Shown here: positions 49,829-62,200 of the stretch, piece by piece
Layout of the letters: each line of letters starts with the position of its first letter
Numbering within the stretch: position 1 is the first letter of the stretch
Assembly: GCA_947561395.2 (NCBI GenBank)
Contig: OX387184.1
Location: 59,951,197-60,015,196 of the forward strand
Direction: 5' to 3'
Source of the DNA: Buxus sempervirens
Lineage: Eukaryota; Streptophyta; Magnoliopsida; Buxales; Buxaceae
DNA length: 64,000 nt
Notes under the pieces: generated by a model
What the model was told of the DNA's origin: nothing
Databases searched by the model: none
Seen by the model: the letters and a program-made list of their open reading frames with translations, nothing else
Position numbers and translations under genes: made by a program

Positions 49829-52636
49829 ATACAACTATAAAAAGCACAAAACATTTAAAGTGTTTTTTATTTTCATCTATTTAAAATATCCTTTTCTAGA
49901 ATCTTTAATCTCAAAAGAACATTATTTTTGCTGTTAATTAATTAGCCATCGTTAGGCTTGTTGACTTCTCCAATACTTATATAACTAAAAGAGTTTTAAT
50001 AATTGAAATTACTAATAAAATCTTTCTAAATTAGACTTCATCTCCAATACTTTAATGGAATTACGAATAAACCCTTTTTATAAAGAATTTGCAATAATAT
50101 GCTTTTCAACCTAATAACTTTAGGAAGATTTGCAATACATAATATGGCTCATATTCTATATTCCAGGCTTCATATAGTTTTCAATCTCAGGGTATGCATA
50201 ATGTGAAATATATTGGCCAGTCTTTCTATTTTCCCTTGTTCTTCAAGATGCAAACTCTCTTGGAAGTCCATTGGATTGATATGCTAGGCTATCAACATCA
50301 TTTCAAAGTCCAAGGGATCATAACACAATAGTAAAAATAACTCAAAAGTAATATATTAATAATTACTCAAATAATAATATATGAATAATTATCAAAAATA
50401 TTATTTAATTAATTAAATATCTTAATTTTTAGATTAATTAATTATAAGTATTATATTAATATATAAATTATTTTGTTAATGATTATCACAAATACTTACT
50501 TTGATTAATAAAATATACTAATTATTAAATTGATTAACATATTTAACATGAGACTTAAGGCCATTAAATGTAATGCGTGAAAAATGGATCTTCGATGCAT
50601 TTTAATAATTTAAAGCAATTATTATATATAATACATTTAGTGAAGTTATTTTCATTCTAAATTTTTTTAAGATTAATTTAATTATATATATTGTATATAT
50701 TAATGAATTCCGATTCTTTCTTAATTATTTTAAATGTGTTATTGTAATTATTTAAATAAAAATATAACGATTTAATTAATTACTTTCTTCAATGCGCATA
50801 GTTGCATAATGCAATTGTTATTGAAAATAGTGAATATTGTTTTCTCATTTTAGAGCATAATGAAATTGTTATGAATAGTTTGGCAAACGTTTTATATTTT
50901 AAATGATTTTAGCAAGTCATGAATGGTCTTAACAAATTATGTACATGATTCAAACTTATAAATATTTGTTTCAAATAATTGCTACCCCTACAACCTTCAT
51001 CATTCCCGTTCCATAGATGGCAATTTCTATACCTTCATGCATTTCCTTAATGAAATAGGTAAATAATTTATCTTAGTAAATAAAATTTCATAAAAGTTAT
51101 ATTTACTATATCTCTCAATTTAAGTCTTATTTAATTTTTGTTTTCCTTTTTACACAATGCATGGTTAATATGTTGGAGTAAACTAATATTAACTAAGCAT
51201 CTTAATTAATAGTTATCTATTTATTGAATGGGTTAAGCATTGTGAAGAGCCAAAATTGAGGTGCGTTTTTACCCATCAAATATACCATACATTTATTTTA
51301 TTGGTCAATATTCATATACTTTGCACATAGTAGTTGTTAATAAAAAAAAATGCCAATAGTATATATTTTTGTATCTCATAATCTATTATATAATTAAATA
51401 ACAAAATTTAATAATAAATTGCTAGAAATAAATGACCGCCTAAGAAAATGTAACTATGGGGAATTGAAACATACTATACATACATACATATATATATATA
51501 TAACAATTTATTATTATTATTATGGAAAAAAAACCTTCTCGTGTGCTTGTCTTAGTACAAAATTTTTGTTGATTTTGAATTAAATATATTTAAGTGTAGA
51601 TATATATTGAAAATTTTAAAATTTTTTCTTAAAATATGTTCAACAAATATTTAAAATTAAAGAAGTGTTAGATTGAGAAATAATGAATATAAAAGATATT
51701 TTACTATAATTTTTATATTGGGAATTTTTCTTAAAAGATATTCTTCTAATATTTGAAGTCAAAAAGATGAAATCCCACACTCACTTATAAAGGATATTCT
51801 CTACCATAATCTAATATTAATGTTATTATCTACCTATAATGTGTTCATGTTATAGAATAGACTATAATATAAGATAAATTTAAAAGAGAGGGTACGTGTG
51901 TTTAAAATAATAATTATTAATAAGAAATATTTTTTATTTTAATAAAAATATGAATTATCGTTAAGAAATTTTATGTACTATAAAAGTAGTTAGAAGATTT
52001 TTGTACTGAAATGATACATAAACAAAAATGTTTTTCATTTAAGATATAAAAATTTTAAAATATAAATTATACGTGTATCATAATTATACTAAAATAAATA
52101 AAAACTGCAAGTCATATTTTAGCAAGGACTTTTCATCAGCCGCCTGTCACCATTATCATCACCAATCTTCTGCTACTTTGGCGATTATAATCATCTTTCA
52201 CCTTCCACGACCACTACTTTTGTCATTGTTTCCTATGGGATTGCACCCTTCGTTTCCCCGCCCAGGTTGAGACTTGAGAATGGGTGTCCGCGGGTACTTG
52301 CTCACAATAATAACCGCGTCCCACTCCTGTGACAATCTTGCTTAATAACCTATCACGAGTCTTGATAATATACAAGGAAAGACAACAAAAAAAACAAACA
52401 AAATTTGACAATCTTACATTGTTATTAAGCAATATAACACAAACTTTTTTTTTTTCCTTTTTTAGGGGGAAAAGAAAAAGAAAAAAGGTGACCGTACAGT
52501 TAATAAACAAAGCTGATTAATAAACCGCACTGTACAATGAAGGAACAATAATTAGAACCATAACCTTCCACAATGGCTAACAGGAGCATTATACAAAAGG
52601 GGAGATAAAAAACAATCGACCAATCATCTAAATATG
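49829..52636. other. AT-rich intergenic stretch
   Basis: Very AT-rich, with simple (AT)n and (TTA)n runs (for example around 51,480-51,525). No gene is recognised. It separates the glycosylase gene from the 3' end of CHIP. Confidence 0.6.
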
Positions 52637-54354
52637 TTAATCCATCTTGTAGGCCCAACCATTCCTGTCTAGAAATGCTTGTACTGCTTCTTTAATAGCT
52701 AGATTAGGAATTAGCTGATGTCTATCAAGTGGCTCGCGTGTAACTGGATCAAAATTGCCAACCTAATTCAAGTGGAGATCAAAGTGGAGATCAGTACACT
52801 ACTGTATTAAACTTACCTGAAATTGATGACAAATCAAAACCAGAAATTAAATCACCCTTTGAAGATGTTCAAGAAGCACTGCTCTCTCATATGTGATCCC
52901 GCTTGGAGTGATGACAGGATCACGTAAAATATCAAGTGTAATTCTACAGCACAGGTAATCTGGCACCTGAATTTCCATTAGTTTCTTAGCAACCATATGT
53001 TTACAAACCTGTGATTACCAAAAAAAAAACCTATGTTAACAGAAATCCTAAATGCTCACCTCGGTTGGTATATCAGCCTCTGCAGCTTTCCTGAATACTT
53101 CTCCTAGACATTCCAATTGTTCCAAATGTGCATTTGCGGCTTCATCCATAAATCCCTCCATTTCAGAAAGATCTATAGCATACTGAGTCTTTATAGCATT
53201 CTCGCATGCTTCTCTAAAGCAGGAGCCAACATGAAACACTTGTAATAATGAATGCAGGAAACAAATGGACATGCGAGCACGTGTGTAGTAAAAATCTCCT
53301 GAGATGCTAATAATCTGGAATAACATAACATTGATCAATATTAAAAGCTGAAACTCACTCAGGATATCACATACTTTAAGCTCTGCAGTCTCCATGACTG
53401 CTGGGTAGACACATGCTCCCACTCCAAGTATTTTGCTCTCGCAAACTCCTGCCAGATTTCCTCGTCCATATAACTCTCCAGCTCCAAGGCCTAAACAAGG
53501 AAGGAATTTGTTAAGACTTCAGCAACAGACCTGTAAAGCTGGTTATATTATGATGATAATTAATAATAATAATAAATAAATAAATAAAAAAGAAGAAGAA
53601 GACGAACAGCTCTACCCAAATGCCAATGTCAATGTTTCTTAGACTGTTTGTTGTTGATTAAATAAGTTCTTTCTATTCTACTTCTGCCTTAAAGAGAAAC
53701 ATATCCAATTGGAAAAGCGGGAAACACAATTGTTTAAGCACACGAAAAAGAAAATTCAACTAGAACAAAATGCCTCATCCCATCTAAATGGAAACAGAGA
53801 CAATCTAGTATGTTTCTTTAAACAATCCTTTTTTGTTGCTCCTTATACTCCTTTGTCTTCATTTTGTTAATGTCCTTGAAACACAATAGCTGCCAGAAGA
53901 TAATACATTTCTCCAATCTTACAAGGCCCAATGGAAAAAAATATCTGACGTGACCAGGAAAACCAAGGAAAAAGAATGTGAAGCATATGAAAACACGGAT
54001 ACAACCACCATGTGGATCAGCAGTAGATGCTTAAACTAAATCATTGCACAATATTCTTTGACCAGTGTAATTGCCAGCACACATTTTGGATGAAGGCTCT
54101 GTTTGTTTCACCGGAAAATGGGGAAAAGAGAATATTTTCCGGAATTTTGAAATTTTCCGAACGTTTGTTTTAGGGGAAAACGAAAACTAACGGAAAACAT
54201 TTTCCAAATTGAAGGAAAATCGGCGGAAAATAACTTCCGCTAAAATTGAGCAGAAGTTATTTTCCTCCGAGGCATTATGAACATAACTCTTGTTTCAATT
54301 TCTTTTCCTCCTCGACTTCGACTCTCTTCCTCCTCCTAGGTCTCAAAATGGATG

Positions 54355-54418
<64 letters not shown>

Positions 54419-57400
54419 TTGCCCTAAACACTCTGGCTCATCATTTCCTACATAAGCCACTCATTCTCAATAGTGTCTGCAGGTCGAGTTTGATGGAGGC
54501 TTCGTCTTGCTCCGTATCTTTATCTTTCCTGGATATCTTTTTGTTGCTTTTGATGTTTGATAACAAAACTCCTCCATTGAAGCGGTAATCTCTGAGAGCC
54601 TCTGTTCTCGCTTTTGATGAGGATTTGTTGACGGTGGAAAGCTTCCTAAGGTCCCACGATGGCAACTAGTTTGGAATGTGCAGCTTTAGGTCTTCAATGT
54701 GCAGAAGACAACAGCAACGCCATGTGCTTTCCAGATGTTGATTATAAGAATGGGAAAAATAATCAAACCCGTTATATAAACCGGGGCTTTAATGAGTGGT
54801 TCCATATAATGGTTGAGAGGGAGCAGGAGTACTTGCCCAGCGATGATTACCTGAAGAGATTGCGGAGTGGGGATATGGATTTGGGGGTTAGAAAGGAGGC
54901 CGTTGATTGGATTTGGAAGGTGGGTCGACAGATCGTGCCATCGCTTCTCTGTCATGCTACCATCGCTCTCTTCTAAGGGTGTGTGCTTGGACGATGTCTC
55001 TCGAAGATGGCCAAAAGCTTCATGCTACTCTTCTGAAGAATGGCTTTGCAGCCTGTGTCGATGCCTTCGTTCGGAATGCTCTCCTTTATATGTACAGTAT
55101 GTGCGGCGTCACGAACTCTGCACGGCAGCTGTTCGATAAAATTACCCACGAGCACAGAGACACCGTTGATTGCACCACCCTGATGGGGTGCTACGCTCGT
55201 AATGGACGACCCGATGAGACACTGCATCTCTTTGCTGCAATGCAACGAGAGGGAATACAGCCCGACGAAGTCACCATGATTTGCCTCTTCAACACCTGCT
55301 CTAGGGCACGACGAACGTATTCGCATGGAAAGTAAGTGCTCAAGCCAGTTTAGTTCCTATGGCAGGTATTTTTAGATGCATTTGTAATCCATATGTTACA
55401 TCCAAACACTTGGAAAAAAGGAAGAAGGAAAATTTTTTTTGGGAAATTTTTCTTCTGGAAAATAAAATATTTTCCGGTGAAACAAACAGAGCCGAAATGT
55501 CTGAGATTTCCCTTGCCAGATATCCACTTTATGTTTTTTTACCTAAAGTTGTTAATGTTTATTTAGGTGGATTCTGTTCCCAGAATGGTGAAAAACAAAC
55601 TTCTTTTGGAGGAAAATGAAAATATGTTAAGAGAACAGTTGCATATGAAAGGGAATATGGAGCACAGCTGGTGCCCCCAAAAAAAATCACAGGATCACAA
55701 AAGAACAAAGGAAAAAATAAAAACAACAACAAAAGACAAAAATAGAGCCTTACATAAAGCTAAAAATCAATCATTCCAACATGCCATATTCCTCAATAGG
55801 GATTCAGAAAAATTGCATATACAAAAGGTGAGGGAGTATAGCTGGTGTCCCAAGAAAATCAGTGAATCACAATGGAACAAACGAAAAAAAACAAAAATAA
55901 AAAAACTAAACAAAAGACAAAAATATAACTTCGACAAAACTACAGGACCCTGATTTAGTGGAATCTTTTGCGAGTGATTAAAATTATGGAATTTCAATTT
56001 GAAACTTTTTCTGGGTTCAAATGCGATTAAAGACACCTAGAACCTCAAATTTTCAAAAGAAATACACATATGTGGGCATTTGCAAATCATAAGCAAGTAA
56101 GATTACAAACTGAATGAGAAATATGAAGATTGCCTATTTGATGCATCTATAGTTGAATTTTTTCCAATGTCCAAGTAAGAGATGATAATCCAAGTAAAAG
56201 AATTTCAAAAGGCAAATGAGAATCTAAATCAAATCTTCAACACATTCGACTAGAAAGCTTGTAGATTCGTAAAACAATAACAAACGAGTGTCATTTAGGA
56301 TCTTCTACAGGTGCAAATTGCAGCCAAAGGGCAACTACATACCTGCCAAAGACAACCATAACCACCCAGAATAATCCCAACAACCCAATTGAAATGCTGA
56401 CTCCATTTCTGTTGAAATCTTGCACATGTTGCTTGATGGTGCAAGATTTTCTGGGATTTCAGCAAAATTTTATTAGCATTCAGATGAATTTTCACCAAAA
56501 ACTATTAATGAATTCATGCCCCTAGGTGGTTATTGGGAAAATTTGGAAGTAGTGTACCATAATTCCAACCATCTGAAAAGGCAGAACCAATCAAGTAAAA
56601 TAAAAGATCTTTCAAGAACATATATAGGGTTTACCATTCAAGAGGTAACCACTTGAGACCTCCAAAGACTCAAAACTTAATGATCTAGCCTCCCTCAAGC
56701 CAACAAGAAGAGCTAAGACCTTGCTTGATGGCATGGCCTTTCCCCAGCAAAGACATGGAATATGCACAGAAATGCCTATCTGATCTTTAAAAAATGATGC
56801 CAATCCCTGAGCAGACCGGATTTCATCAAAAGAAGTCATTAAAGTTCAGCTTCATTACCCCTTCAACAGGGACCCTATAGACTGCTACATGCCAGCTGAC
56901 TGCTCAGGAAGAAAAATCAACTTTACAAAACTCCCTCATGATGTCAGAAACAAAAAGTCCAAATAACTCTAGAAAGAGATCCTCATATAATAACAGAAGA
57001 CATCAACTTTGGATTTTCTGAAACCTTCAAAGATCCTCCCATAGTTCACATTTCATAAAACCAACAAGATCACGTGGAACAAGCAATTATATGCCATTTT
57101 CCCCATTATCCCTAATCTAGAAAACCTCCACAAAGAAATTAACCATTTGGTCCTACATGGAATGAACAATCTCATCCCAAGCATGTCTATGAAGAAACAT
57201 CAAACCTGACAGGCCATCACACAATCAAGAAACAGGTGATTCATCTATTCAATTTGACCTAGATATTAAAATAAAACCCGATGGGGGATAAACCAGATGT
57301 CTCCTTCTCTTTTAAAAGTTATCAAGGGTGTTGAATTTTCAGAGTATCAGAACCCAGACAAATGATTTGACAGTAGAGGAAGCGGAAGGAAGTCAAATGG

Positions 57401-60400: not shown

Positions 60401-61242
60401 ATCCCCAACAATCGCTCCCTCCAGCACCTGCGACCACAAGCCAACACCTGCCAACCAAGGCAAACCGCAAGCCAACACTTGCCAAGCGCAGCATGCTTTC
60501 ATAGGACCCCCGTGAGACTCAAACCCACAACCTTTCCGGGATCCCTCCTTGCACGTGTGAACTATAGGCAAACAGCCAACACCTACAACAACCACAGCGT
60601 GCATTTTGGGGATTGACACTTTTGAGAATGCAGCAGATATGTTGACAAAGTCTATTCCCACAGATAAGTTCAAGCATTGCTTGGACTTGATTAGTGCCTC
60701 AAGGTGTTAAAGACAAGGTGCCCCAAACCCATTGGTTCTAGGTGGAGTTTTGAAGTTGCTGTTGTTCTTTTTTCTAAGGAATGAATATTCACCAAGGTGG
60801 AAGTTGTTGGAAACAATGGTTCATATTCTGGGTCAAAGGGGGGAGGGAATACTGGGTTTAGGGTTGGTATATATACACTGATGTAACCCTAATTGATGTT
60901 TTTTCATAGTGGAAAATTTTTCCATACACAATGGACGTAGACACATTACCAAACCACTTAAATTTGCGTGTTCTTGTTCTTCTCTCTATTTTTTACTATT
61001 CAGATTGCACGATTCTCAACATGAACCTATTAATATTCAATGATATTTCCATGTCCAATTTATAAGTAACTCAAGGAAGAACATAATAATCAAAGAATAC
61101 AACAGATATGAGAAACAAGCATTGATCATATAACTAATAAAAGGAATTTTCGGTGCATATCATCTCTTACCTTTTTCAATTCCTTGACTCCATCAGCATA
61201 TTCTTGCTTTTGTAGTAACGCAAGTCCTAACATATAGTGTGC
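52637..61242 (-). CDS. CHIP: E3 ubiquitin ligase CHIP (C-terminal part; 5' exons outside window)
   Basis: Minus-strand exons: 61171..61242 ([21 protein letters not shown], end of the third TPR), 53375..53490, 53060..53213 (coiled-coil region), 52856..52966 and 52637..52762 (U-box). All phases join. The U-box reads [20 protein letters not shown] then [16 protein letters not shown] and [18 protein letters not shown], ending WAYKMD. CHIP binds Hsp70/Hsp90 tails through its TPRs and ubiquitinates misfolded clients and plastid precursor proteins. The sequence after the TPR exon ([16 protein letters not shown]) is about six residues shorter than in Arabidopsis CHIP. The intron between 53,490 and 61,171 is 7.7 kb and full of transposon remains. 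The start and first TPRs are not in the window, so the right end here is an exon edge, not the gene end. Confidence 0.9.
54356..54416. repeat. (TC)n microsatellite in the captured 5' UTR
   Basis: About 30 TC units lie upstream of the cyclin fragment. CT-rich tracts are common in plant 5' UTRs, so it was probably captured with the cyclin leader or expanded afterwards. Confidence 0.9.
54659..54925 (+). pseudogene. Captured 5' piece of a D-type cyclin gene
   Basis: From ATG 54659 the frame reads [20 protein letters not shown], then [42 protein letters not shown]. This is the N-terminus of plant CYCD2/CYCD4-type cyclins. The usual LxCxE-like RB-binding motif near the N-terminus is altered (LQCAE). 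Similarity stops at WIWK, an exon-end-like position, and the frame then runs a few codons into unrelated DNA. The cyclin box proper is almost entirely missing, so it cannot act as a cyclin. Confidence 0.8.
54960..55335 (+). pseudogene. Captured PPR gene piece
   Basis: In a different frame from the cyclin piece, 54907..55335 is open. It encodes PPR sequence: [77 protein letters not shown]. It is not derived from the PPR gene at 38.8 kb, which differs throughout. The frame remains open for more than 120 codons, so capture may be fairly recent. Confidence 0.78.
55494..56600. other. CHIP intron stretch without a recognised feature
   Basis: An imperfect direct repeat lies around 55,650-55,780 and 55,830-55,945 (AGCTGGTGYCCC then A-rich). 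No gene is supported. Confidence 0.4.
56600..57320 (-). mobile_element. L1-type LINE zf-RVT / 3' fragment (CHIP intron)
   Basis: Read on the minus strand, [12 protein letters not shown] (around 57,230) is followed at the usual spacing by [26 protein letters not shown] and [11 protein letters not shown]. This is the zf-RVT pattern of plant L1 proteins, with frame breaks between blocks. Confidence 0.6.
57328..57635. repeat. Two-copy tandem repeat, period 154 bp
   Basis: Copies begin at 57328 and 57482 and are about 95% identical by eye. They abut the L1 fragment and may be part of it duplicated in place. Confidence 0.9.
58385..58613 (+). mobile_element. Copia-like LTR remnant (fossil)
   Basis: Starts TGTTGGAAATGG and ends CCCAACA. 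The 3' third has the AAACCACGTAAATCTGTG block seen near the end of many Copia LTRs. It is similar in plan, but not closely in sequence, to the LTR at 60805..61021. No flanking coding part is evident. Confidence 0.45.
60324..60345. repeat. 22-bp perfect palindrome
   Basis: The core CCAATAACTTAAGTTATTGG reads the same on both strands; one more pair (A/T) extends it to 22 bp. It has no loop, so it is unlikely to be a terminator. It may be the fused ends of an excised or degraded inverted-repeat element. Confidence 0.7.
60600..61021 (+). mobile_element. Ty1-Copia retrotransposon 3' end: end of pol, polypurine tract and LTR (fossil)
   Basis: The end of the pol region is recognisable by the Copia signature [20 protein letters not shown] (about 60,630-60,692). 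A polypurine-like CACCAAGGTGGAAG sits directly before the LTR at 60805..61021, which starts TGTTGG and ends CAACA. The rest of the element is missing or unrecognisable to the left. It is a broken, old copy in the CHIP intron. Confidence 0.75.
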
Positions 61243-62200
61243 CTGTCCTCATGAAACATGTGCAAACATAGTGAGATATGTGGATCACATCATGCAAACA
61301 GACTACGTCAAGCACATGACAAAACTATAATGCAATAAAGCATCAAATTCAACAGGAGAGAGAGAGTATAGTAAAATATAAGAAAATAAAGAAGAGCATA
61401 TTGCGTATAAAAAAAGATAAATAAACATCAAATGAGCACATGAACACAAAAAAACTGCACCAAGTATCACAAATAGCACGGTACAACAGAAGCTACAATG
61501 TTTCCACAAATTTGCCAGCCAAATGCATAATATGCTATGGGTGATTGATAATGTACTTATCTTATGGAGGATAAGAACCTCACTTGCTGAGTTTTATGCA
61601 CTCCCTTTTATTTTAATAATCATTTCAGGAAATAATCAGGGAGCTCCACAAGGAAGAGACTGATGCAAGAACTAGGAGATAGTTTTCAGTAATTTAGTAG
61701 GGACATATGATAGCCAAACATTTGCAGAACTATTTGTTGTTAGTTGGGTTTTGTGTTACCATTGGATATGTAATTTGAAAATCTTTATAGGTTTATTTAG
61801 TTGAATTTGGGTTTAGGGATTATCGGTGTTTAGTGGCATTTAGTACCATTAATAATATTATGTCTTGGGTATGAATGCGCTTACGAGAAAAGCCATATTC
61901 AAGTTCCTTCTAAACACCATATTTGGGTGTTACGGGATTCAAAGTATGACAAATTGCTGAGCTATGGATCAAATGGAAAAAGATAAGAATTGATAGTAAA
62001 ATAGAACCAATCAATTTGAAGGCATTTGATAATATCCATGATCAATGTGATGCATCTTTTGCGAATGTGGAAACCATTGATGAGTCGCCTTCAACCACTT
62101 GGTCAAACATTTGAAGCTTCACAGACTCCAACAAAGGTAAAACAAAGAGGTATAAAACACTTTTAGATGTGCGGCAAATATTTAACACAATCTATACAAA
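61243..62200. other. Upstream CHIP intron (no exon found)
   Basis: The remaining TPR exons of CHIP were looked for on the minus strand here and were not found. They should lie beyond the right edge. Confidence 0.5.

Follow-up and report, generated by a model that had tools for sequence, protein, structure and literature searches.

Pack-MULEs of rice and other plants capture gene fragments, and a single element may combine several donors; elements of the Mutator superfamily produce 9-bp target-site duplications. Gene capture has been described less for PIF/Harbinger than for Mutator elements, and within the literature searched the term Pack-PIF occurs in a single paper. Gene-capturing PIF/Harbinger elements are already known, and the closest described system is the Pack-PIF elements of maize (Gisby and Catoni 2022, PMC8903248). 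These have PIF terminal inverted repeats (TIRs), mostly TTA/TAA duplications, no transposase and captured host gene pieces, and their cluster 18 forms a subgroup with pieces of two genes. The Pifvine-3 transduplications of grapevine are PIF elements with host exon and intron pieces, some of them common to several copies; the host pieces occupy a long 5' stretch that is distinct from the regions of ORF1 and the transposase (PMC2528002). For the multicopy Pack-TIRs of animals, template switching followed by transposition as a unit has been proposed from microhomology at the breakpoints (PMC8277862); the word Harbinger is absent from the main text of that paper.

The element considered here lies at 54095-55493 of a stretch of 64,000 nucleotides from Buxus sempervirens (the window, meaning the whole DNA analysed), and is an unusually readable example of these gene-capturing elements. 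It is very probably a non-autonomous Pack-type PIF/Harbinger element that captured pieces of a cyclin gene and a PPR gene by template switching and was then mobilised in trans. Gene-fragment capture is shared with the Pack-MULEs, whereas its duplications are of 3 bp rather than 9 bp. With the maize Pack-PIF elements it has in common the type of TIRs, the duplications prevailing in its family, the missing transposase and the host gene pieces, which derive from two genes as in cluster 18. Its pieces exceed those of cluster 18 in length, at roughly 590 and 380 bp versus 163 and 58 bp, and fill nearly the whole interior, and its junction argues for template switching and not for fusion of neighbouring insertions. 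It resembles the Pifvine-3 elements in its exon and intron content, but neither an ORF1 nor a transposase region was seen in it. The Pack-TIRs are likewise multicopy, with microhomology at breakpoints and movement as a unit, but belong to animals. Because a single assembled genome contains numerous different interiors of the family, donors that can be located and relatives with transposase sequences, the capture mechanism can be read from the junctions.

The element, its donors and its junction

The element is 1,399 bp long (54095-55493, forward strand). The sequence-only reading had claimed a perfect 25-bp TIR with matching GAA flanks and no transposase, and each of these points was recovered. 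The left repeat (54095-54119, forward strand; its first 24 bases served as the family search pattern) and the right repeat (55469-55493, reverse strand) are exact inverted copies, flank comparison gave GAA on both sides (54092-54094 and 55494-55496), and no transposase frame is present among the listed open reading frames of the element, where the Pfam run covered the cyclin and PPR frames. A search at up to 6 mismatches found no second family TIR elsewhere in the window. The family left end of about 243 bp (54095-54337, forward strand) is common to other elements and to the transposase-bearing relatives L048 and L049 (80-82% identity), and the family right end of about 175 bp (55319-55493, forward strand) matches L031 and L041 from query position 14 as well as L048 and L049. 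The bases 55306-55318, between the PPR piece and this right end, are assigned to neither. A 25-bp palindrome at 54220-54270, with arms 88% complementary, was noted in the left end and is present in the transposase-bearing relatives too.

The element is antisense to its host gene, within an intron that measures about 7.7 kb provided that all exons were recognised. It is flanked by a U-box exon (52850-53014, reverse strand; PF04564, E=6e-14) and, on its far side, by a TPR-like exon (61150-61248, reverse strand) that combines a motif with a TPR_2 match at E=0.0048, below the curated cut-off. Frames near 53.1-53.5 kb, two of which gave no Pfam match, may belong to CHIP, judging by motif only. The location in a CHIP intron, as proposed earlier, is thus retained, with CHIP being the name that we assume for the gene from the U-box, the weak TPR-like exon and sequence motifs. 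No empty or duplicate CHIP site was found in the genome, where 52500-54094 (1,595 bp) matches only itself.

The interior was said to hold two unrelated host gene pieces side by side, and their sources do lie on different contigs. The cyclin piece (54339-54931, forward strand; start judged by eye in the alignment) matches a cyclin gene at 95% (L011 4453-5003; C4:12294952-12295502), and the PPR piece (54926-55305, forward strand) matches at 90% a PLS/DYW-type PPR gene, or a paralogue of the donor, at an unlinked locus (L012 4784-5166; C6:46719283-46719665). Adjacency of cyclin and PPR sequences in the same order in unrelated plants, without TIRs, had been named as evidence against mobile capture; in this genome the two genes occupy separate contigs. 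The 9.0 and 9.5 kb examined around them contain no match to the family TIR with 5 or fewer errors. The element is therefore of Pack-TYPE: it is bounded by TIRs, its list of frames contains no transposase, and its host gene pieces are found elsewhere in the genome. The cyclin piece comprises about 320 bp of sequence preceding the ATG, including the (TC)n tract of the leader that had been reported as captured, then exon 1, and it extends 12 bases beyond the inferred border of exon 1 and intron 1, which reads AAG on the exon side and GTGGGTCGACAG on the intron side. These captured bases past the inferred border point to DNA rather than cDNA as the source. As for the label cyclin D, the cyclin identity stands, with a Cyclin_N match (E=1.9e-4) that narrowly misses the Pfam cut-off; Pfam gives cyclin alone, and the D subtype is assumed from resemblance. 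In the donor, the exon 1 frame by itself has no Pfam match at E 0.01, and three downstream frames cover consecutive portions of Cyclin_N, with one match exceeding the cut-off.

The PPR locus L012 carries PPR, E and DYW domains. Between L012 4747 and 6674 the PPR/E/E+ part and the DYW part are in overlapping, different frames, and by its frames this locus may be damaged or a pseudogene. Upstream of the PPR gene, a reading frame at L012 3500-3814 looks similar to the terminal zinc-binding part of a LINE reverse transcriptase. For the PPR piece, K2P distances are 0.089-0.107 between L012 and the copies of the element and 0.059-0.095 among the copies; as the distances to L012 are roughly equal to or greater than those among the copies, L012 may represent a paralogue of the actual donor.

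A whole-element search was made in the plant's own genome (676.5 Mb, 247 contigs), with 40 of 811 candidates scored, such that the counts are lower bounds. At least three full chimeras exist, namely the window copy, L009 (C4:8627554-8628931, 86% identical to it) and L010 (C8:3002266-3003597, 84% identical), so that the expected sister elements amount to at least two. All three have the cyclin/PPR junction at an identical position and K2P distances over the full length of 0.062-0.086, and the surroundings of L009 and L010 differ, which shows the captured chimera as a mobile unit at other loci. Apart from the donors, no single-gene intermediate (an element with cyclin or PPR only) was seen among the matches listed, 40 of 811 being scored.

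At the junction, the two pieces share the 6-bp microhomology CGACAG (54926-54931, forward strand), which is present in both donors at the switch point and has one substitution in L009. The chance of at least 6 shared bp at a random join of both donor loci is 0.002 (0.2% of 200,000 draws). Three two-part junctions were read in the family: besides the 6 bp of the window element, L037 shares the 4 bp GATC (chance 0.02, computed with the window's donors), and L032 has a 5-nt filler with zero shared bases. Where cyclin and PPR sequence meet in the window element, no remnant of a TIR was seen, which together with the 6 shared bp favours template switching. By this route, the transposase interior would have been lost from an ancestral copy of the family, and template switching during DNA repair or replication would have put a cyclin stretch (leader, exon 1 and the start of intron 1) in its place, joined at the 6-bp microhomology to a stretch of the unlinked PPR gene. 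The finished chimera would then have been moved in trans by a family transposase from a source copy, which would account for the three or more copies, among them the one that lies antisense in the intron of the CHIP-like U-box gene.

In the co-mobilisation model that Gisby and Catoni (2022; PMC8903248) propose for maize Pack-PIF elements, two neighbouring family insertions move as one together with the DNA between them. Within the present family, L037 has the family element L056 as one of its two sources, and its right half matches L056 through to the TIR, as a fusion of two elements would give. For the window element the model is unlikely because its donors are unlinked, being on different contigs, and its junction has 6 shared bp in place of a TIR remnant.

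Reading frames and coding decay

Both captured frames had been described as long and open, with about 106 cyclin codons and 142 PPR codons, and they are so in the window copy. The cyclin frame (54659-54976, forward strand) encodes 105 amino acids and a stop; 87 cyclin codons are followed by 18 codons outside the cyclin exon, which cross the 12 inferred intron bases into PPR-side DNA in a foreign frame and then reach the stop. The PPR frame (54907-55332; PPR_2, E=8.5e-14) is open in a different register. Because the two pieces are in different frames, the sequence is not expected to encode a cyclin-PPR fusion protein.

The chimera could still be a working gene, transcribed from the cyclin leader, with selection keeping either the product or an RNA directed against the donors. 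Consistent with this, the window copy has both frames open and includes the upstream cyclin stretch as well as an inferred splice donor, divergence among the copies is lowest in the cyclin coding part (2.6-2.9%, against 4.7-6.4% in the leader), and the cyclin dN/dS against the donor is 0.16-0.43. We consider such a gene quite improbable, as the frames are out of register and decay has set in. In both sisters, L009 and L010, the PPR piece is interrupted by a stop and by frame-shifting indels, and a 7-bp insertion breaks the cyclin frame of L010. The dN/dS values against the donors (0.47-1.07 for PPR) partly reflect the donors' own constraint; copy against copy they are 1.0-1.7 for the PPR piece and 0.44-1.59 for the cyclin piece, the latter from 6-8 coding changes only. 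Selection on the captured frames is thus unsupported among the copies by the codon comparison, with the changes in the cyclin piece too few to decide. The open frames pointed out in the sequence-only reading give little indication of function in this comparison, both sisters being broken in PPR and one in cyclin. With stops, indels and dN/dS of 0.44-1.7 among copies, the frames appear to drift, and the captured genes are most likely passengers, that is, neutral cargo. Annotation could take these open cyclin and PPR frames for genes, although they are most likely transposon cargo.

The TIR family and its transposase-bearing relatives

The 24-bp TIR pattern was found at up to 2 mismatches at 512 places in the genome (242 forward and 270 reverse), while the reversed control pattern gave 0; a lack of other copies sharing the TIRs, which had been put forward as evidence against mobility, is therefore not what the genome holds. 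Flanks were surveyed in 42 sequences (39 loci, two relatives and the window stretch), yielding 27 TIR pairs, of which one was dropped as spurious (L036 3023-4725, 6 mismatches at each end). Identical 3-bp flanks are present in 19 of the remaining 26 pairs: 11 are TAA, four TTA, and GAA, TGA, TAT and TGG occur once each. TAA and TTA thus make up 15 of 19, indicating a family that prefers TWA in its 3-bp duplications. The GAA of the window copy has 3 bp yet is not TWA, as in three other elements with identical non-TWA flanks (TGA, TAT, TGG). The flanks disagree in seven of the 26 pairs (L010, L028, L029, L031, L043 and the transposase-bearing L048 and L049). Over all 27 pairs, the 3-mers next out agree in one, and the flanks taken as 4-mers also agree in one.

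The 24-bp TIR is identical in the relatives L048 (5.2 kb) and L049 (6.0 kb), whose ends are homologous. Frames of L048 match DDE_Tnp_4 (6.1e-14, C-terminal half) and Myb_DNA-bind_3 (1.1e-20) in Pfam, which places DDE_Tnp_4 and Myb/SANT-like sequences inside the TIRs of this family; L049 is linked by its ends and by a DDE_Tnp_4 match at its place. These relatives and the mostly TWA duplications bear out the PIF/Harbinger-like origin suggested earlier. The search for an autonomous partner was answered in part: transposase-bearing relatives with the same TIR were found, but the DDE_Tnp_4 matches of L048 and L049 contain stop codons and both copies look defective. Among the first 100 of the 512 TIR places, a further DDE_Tnp_4 match with one stop lies between two exact TIRs (C9:47597292), and another with two stops lies near a single TIR (C4:13474720). 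No intact transposase source within family TIRs was found in L048, L049 and these first 100 places.

A Mutator-like Pack-MULE or a Helitron might be thought of, since Pack-MULEs are the best-known gene-capturing elements. Such an identity is refuted by the 3-bp, mostly TWA flanks, which are not the 9-bp duplications of Mutator, and by the DDE_Tnp_4 and Myb/SANT relatives, and TIRs argue against a Helitron; its probability is very small. That relics of an old gene tandem just happen to be framed by an inverted repeat can be dismissed outright, for nothing was found in its favour and at least two more full copies lie at other loci in different surroundings, within a genome-wide TIR family.

Cargo of other members and divergence of the ends

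Ten interior frames from eight other elements were run against Pfam. Matches with E below 0.001 were obtained for five of the ten, from four elements (L032, L028, L047 and, with two frames, L046). DnaJ (L032), LRR (L028) and an F-box-associated piece (L046) exceed the curated cut-off; a KIB1-4 propeller (L046) and LysM3 (L047) are below it. The L037 frame reached only E=0.025, and frames of L045, L017, L022 and L019 had no Pfam match. Six interiors were traced by genome search, and five of these (window, L032, L037, L018 and L047) match at least two separate places with different parts, the sources being verified as genes by Pfam for the two of the window element only; in the L017 interior, only one short outside stretch was matched. 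Interiors are partly common between subfamilies (L017 with L032; L018/L036 with L028 and L039; L037/L040 with L043; L031 with L041), a pattern that suggests stepwise assembly of the cargo. In L018 1110-2708, three pieces colinear with C22:27015416-27015979 surround a piece matching C8:48636370-48636922. The C22 locus was taken as LRR-like since it is common to L028 and L039, and the C8 locus is a gene-like cluster; the arrangement looks as if a second capture had landed inside the first.

Among the three sister copies, the ends (54095-54337 and 55381-55493 in the window) are about twice as diverged as the interior, differing by 9.4-17% in five of six comparisons and by 6.1% in one, against 4.6-6.6% in the interior. 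The odds ratios for this gap in the window's subfamily are 1.8-2.4, with p of 0.0002-0.015 in three non-independent comparisons. As a control, p fell below 0.05 in one of eight other pairs, so that the subfamily of the window element shows the gap most clearly. Left ends are 87-90% identical among the sisters and that of the window element is 91% identical to L013, meaning that they are no closer within the sisters than to the family; the right end of the window element is 94% identical to L036 versus 77-83% to the sisters. Ends that diverge more than the interior would not be expected if one ancestor had simply been copied. The gap could come from exchange of ends, from methylation-driven mutation of the repeated ends, or from conversion of the captured cyclin sequence by the donor gene.

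Given the shared interiors, the interleaved pieces of L018, the right half of L037 taken from another element and the greater divergence of the ends, the family might be a gene-shuffling platform that repeatedly swaps part of its interior, and perhaps its ends, with cargo built in steps and not caught once. We offer this only tentatively and consider it somewhat doubtful. A separate 1.45-kb subfamily (L017, L020, L021, L023, L027 and L038), whose interior has no clear gene match, contains copies up to 99.5% identical and by this similarity looks like the youngest branch of the family.
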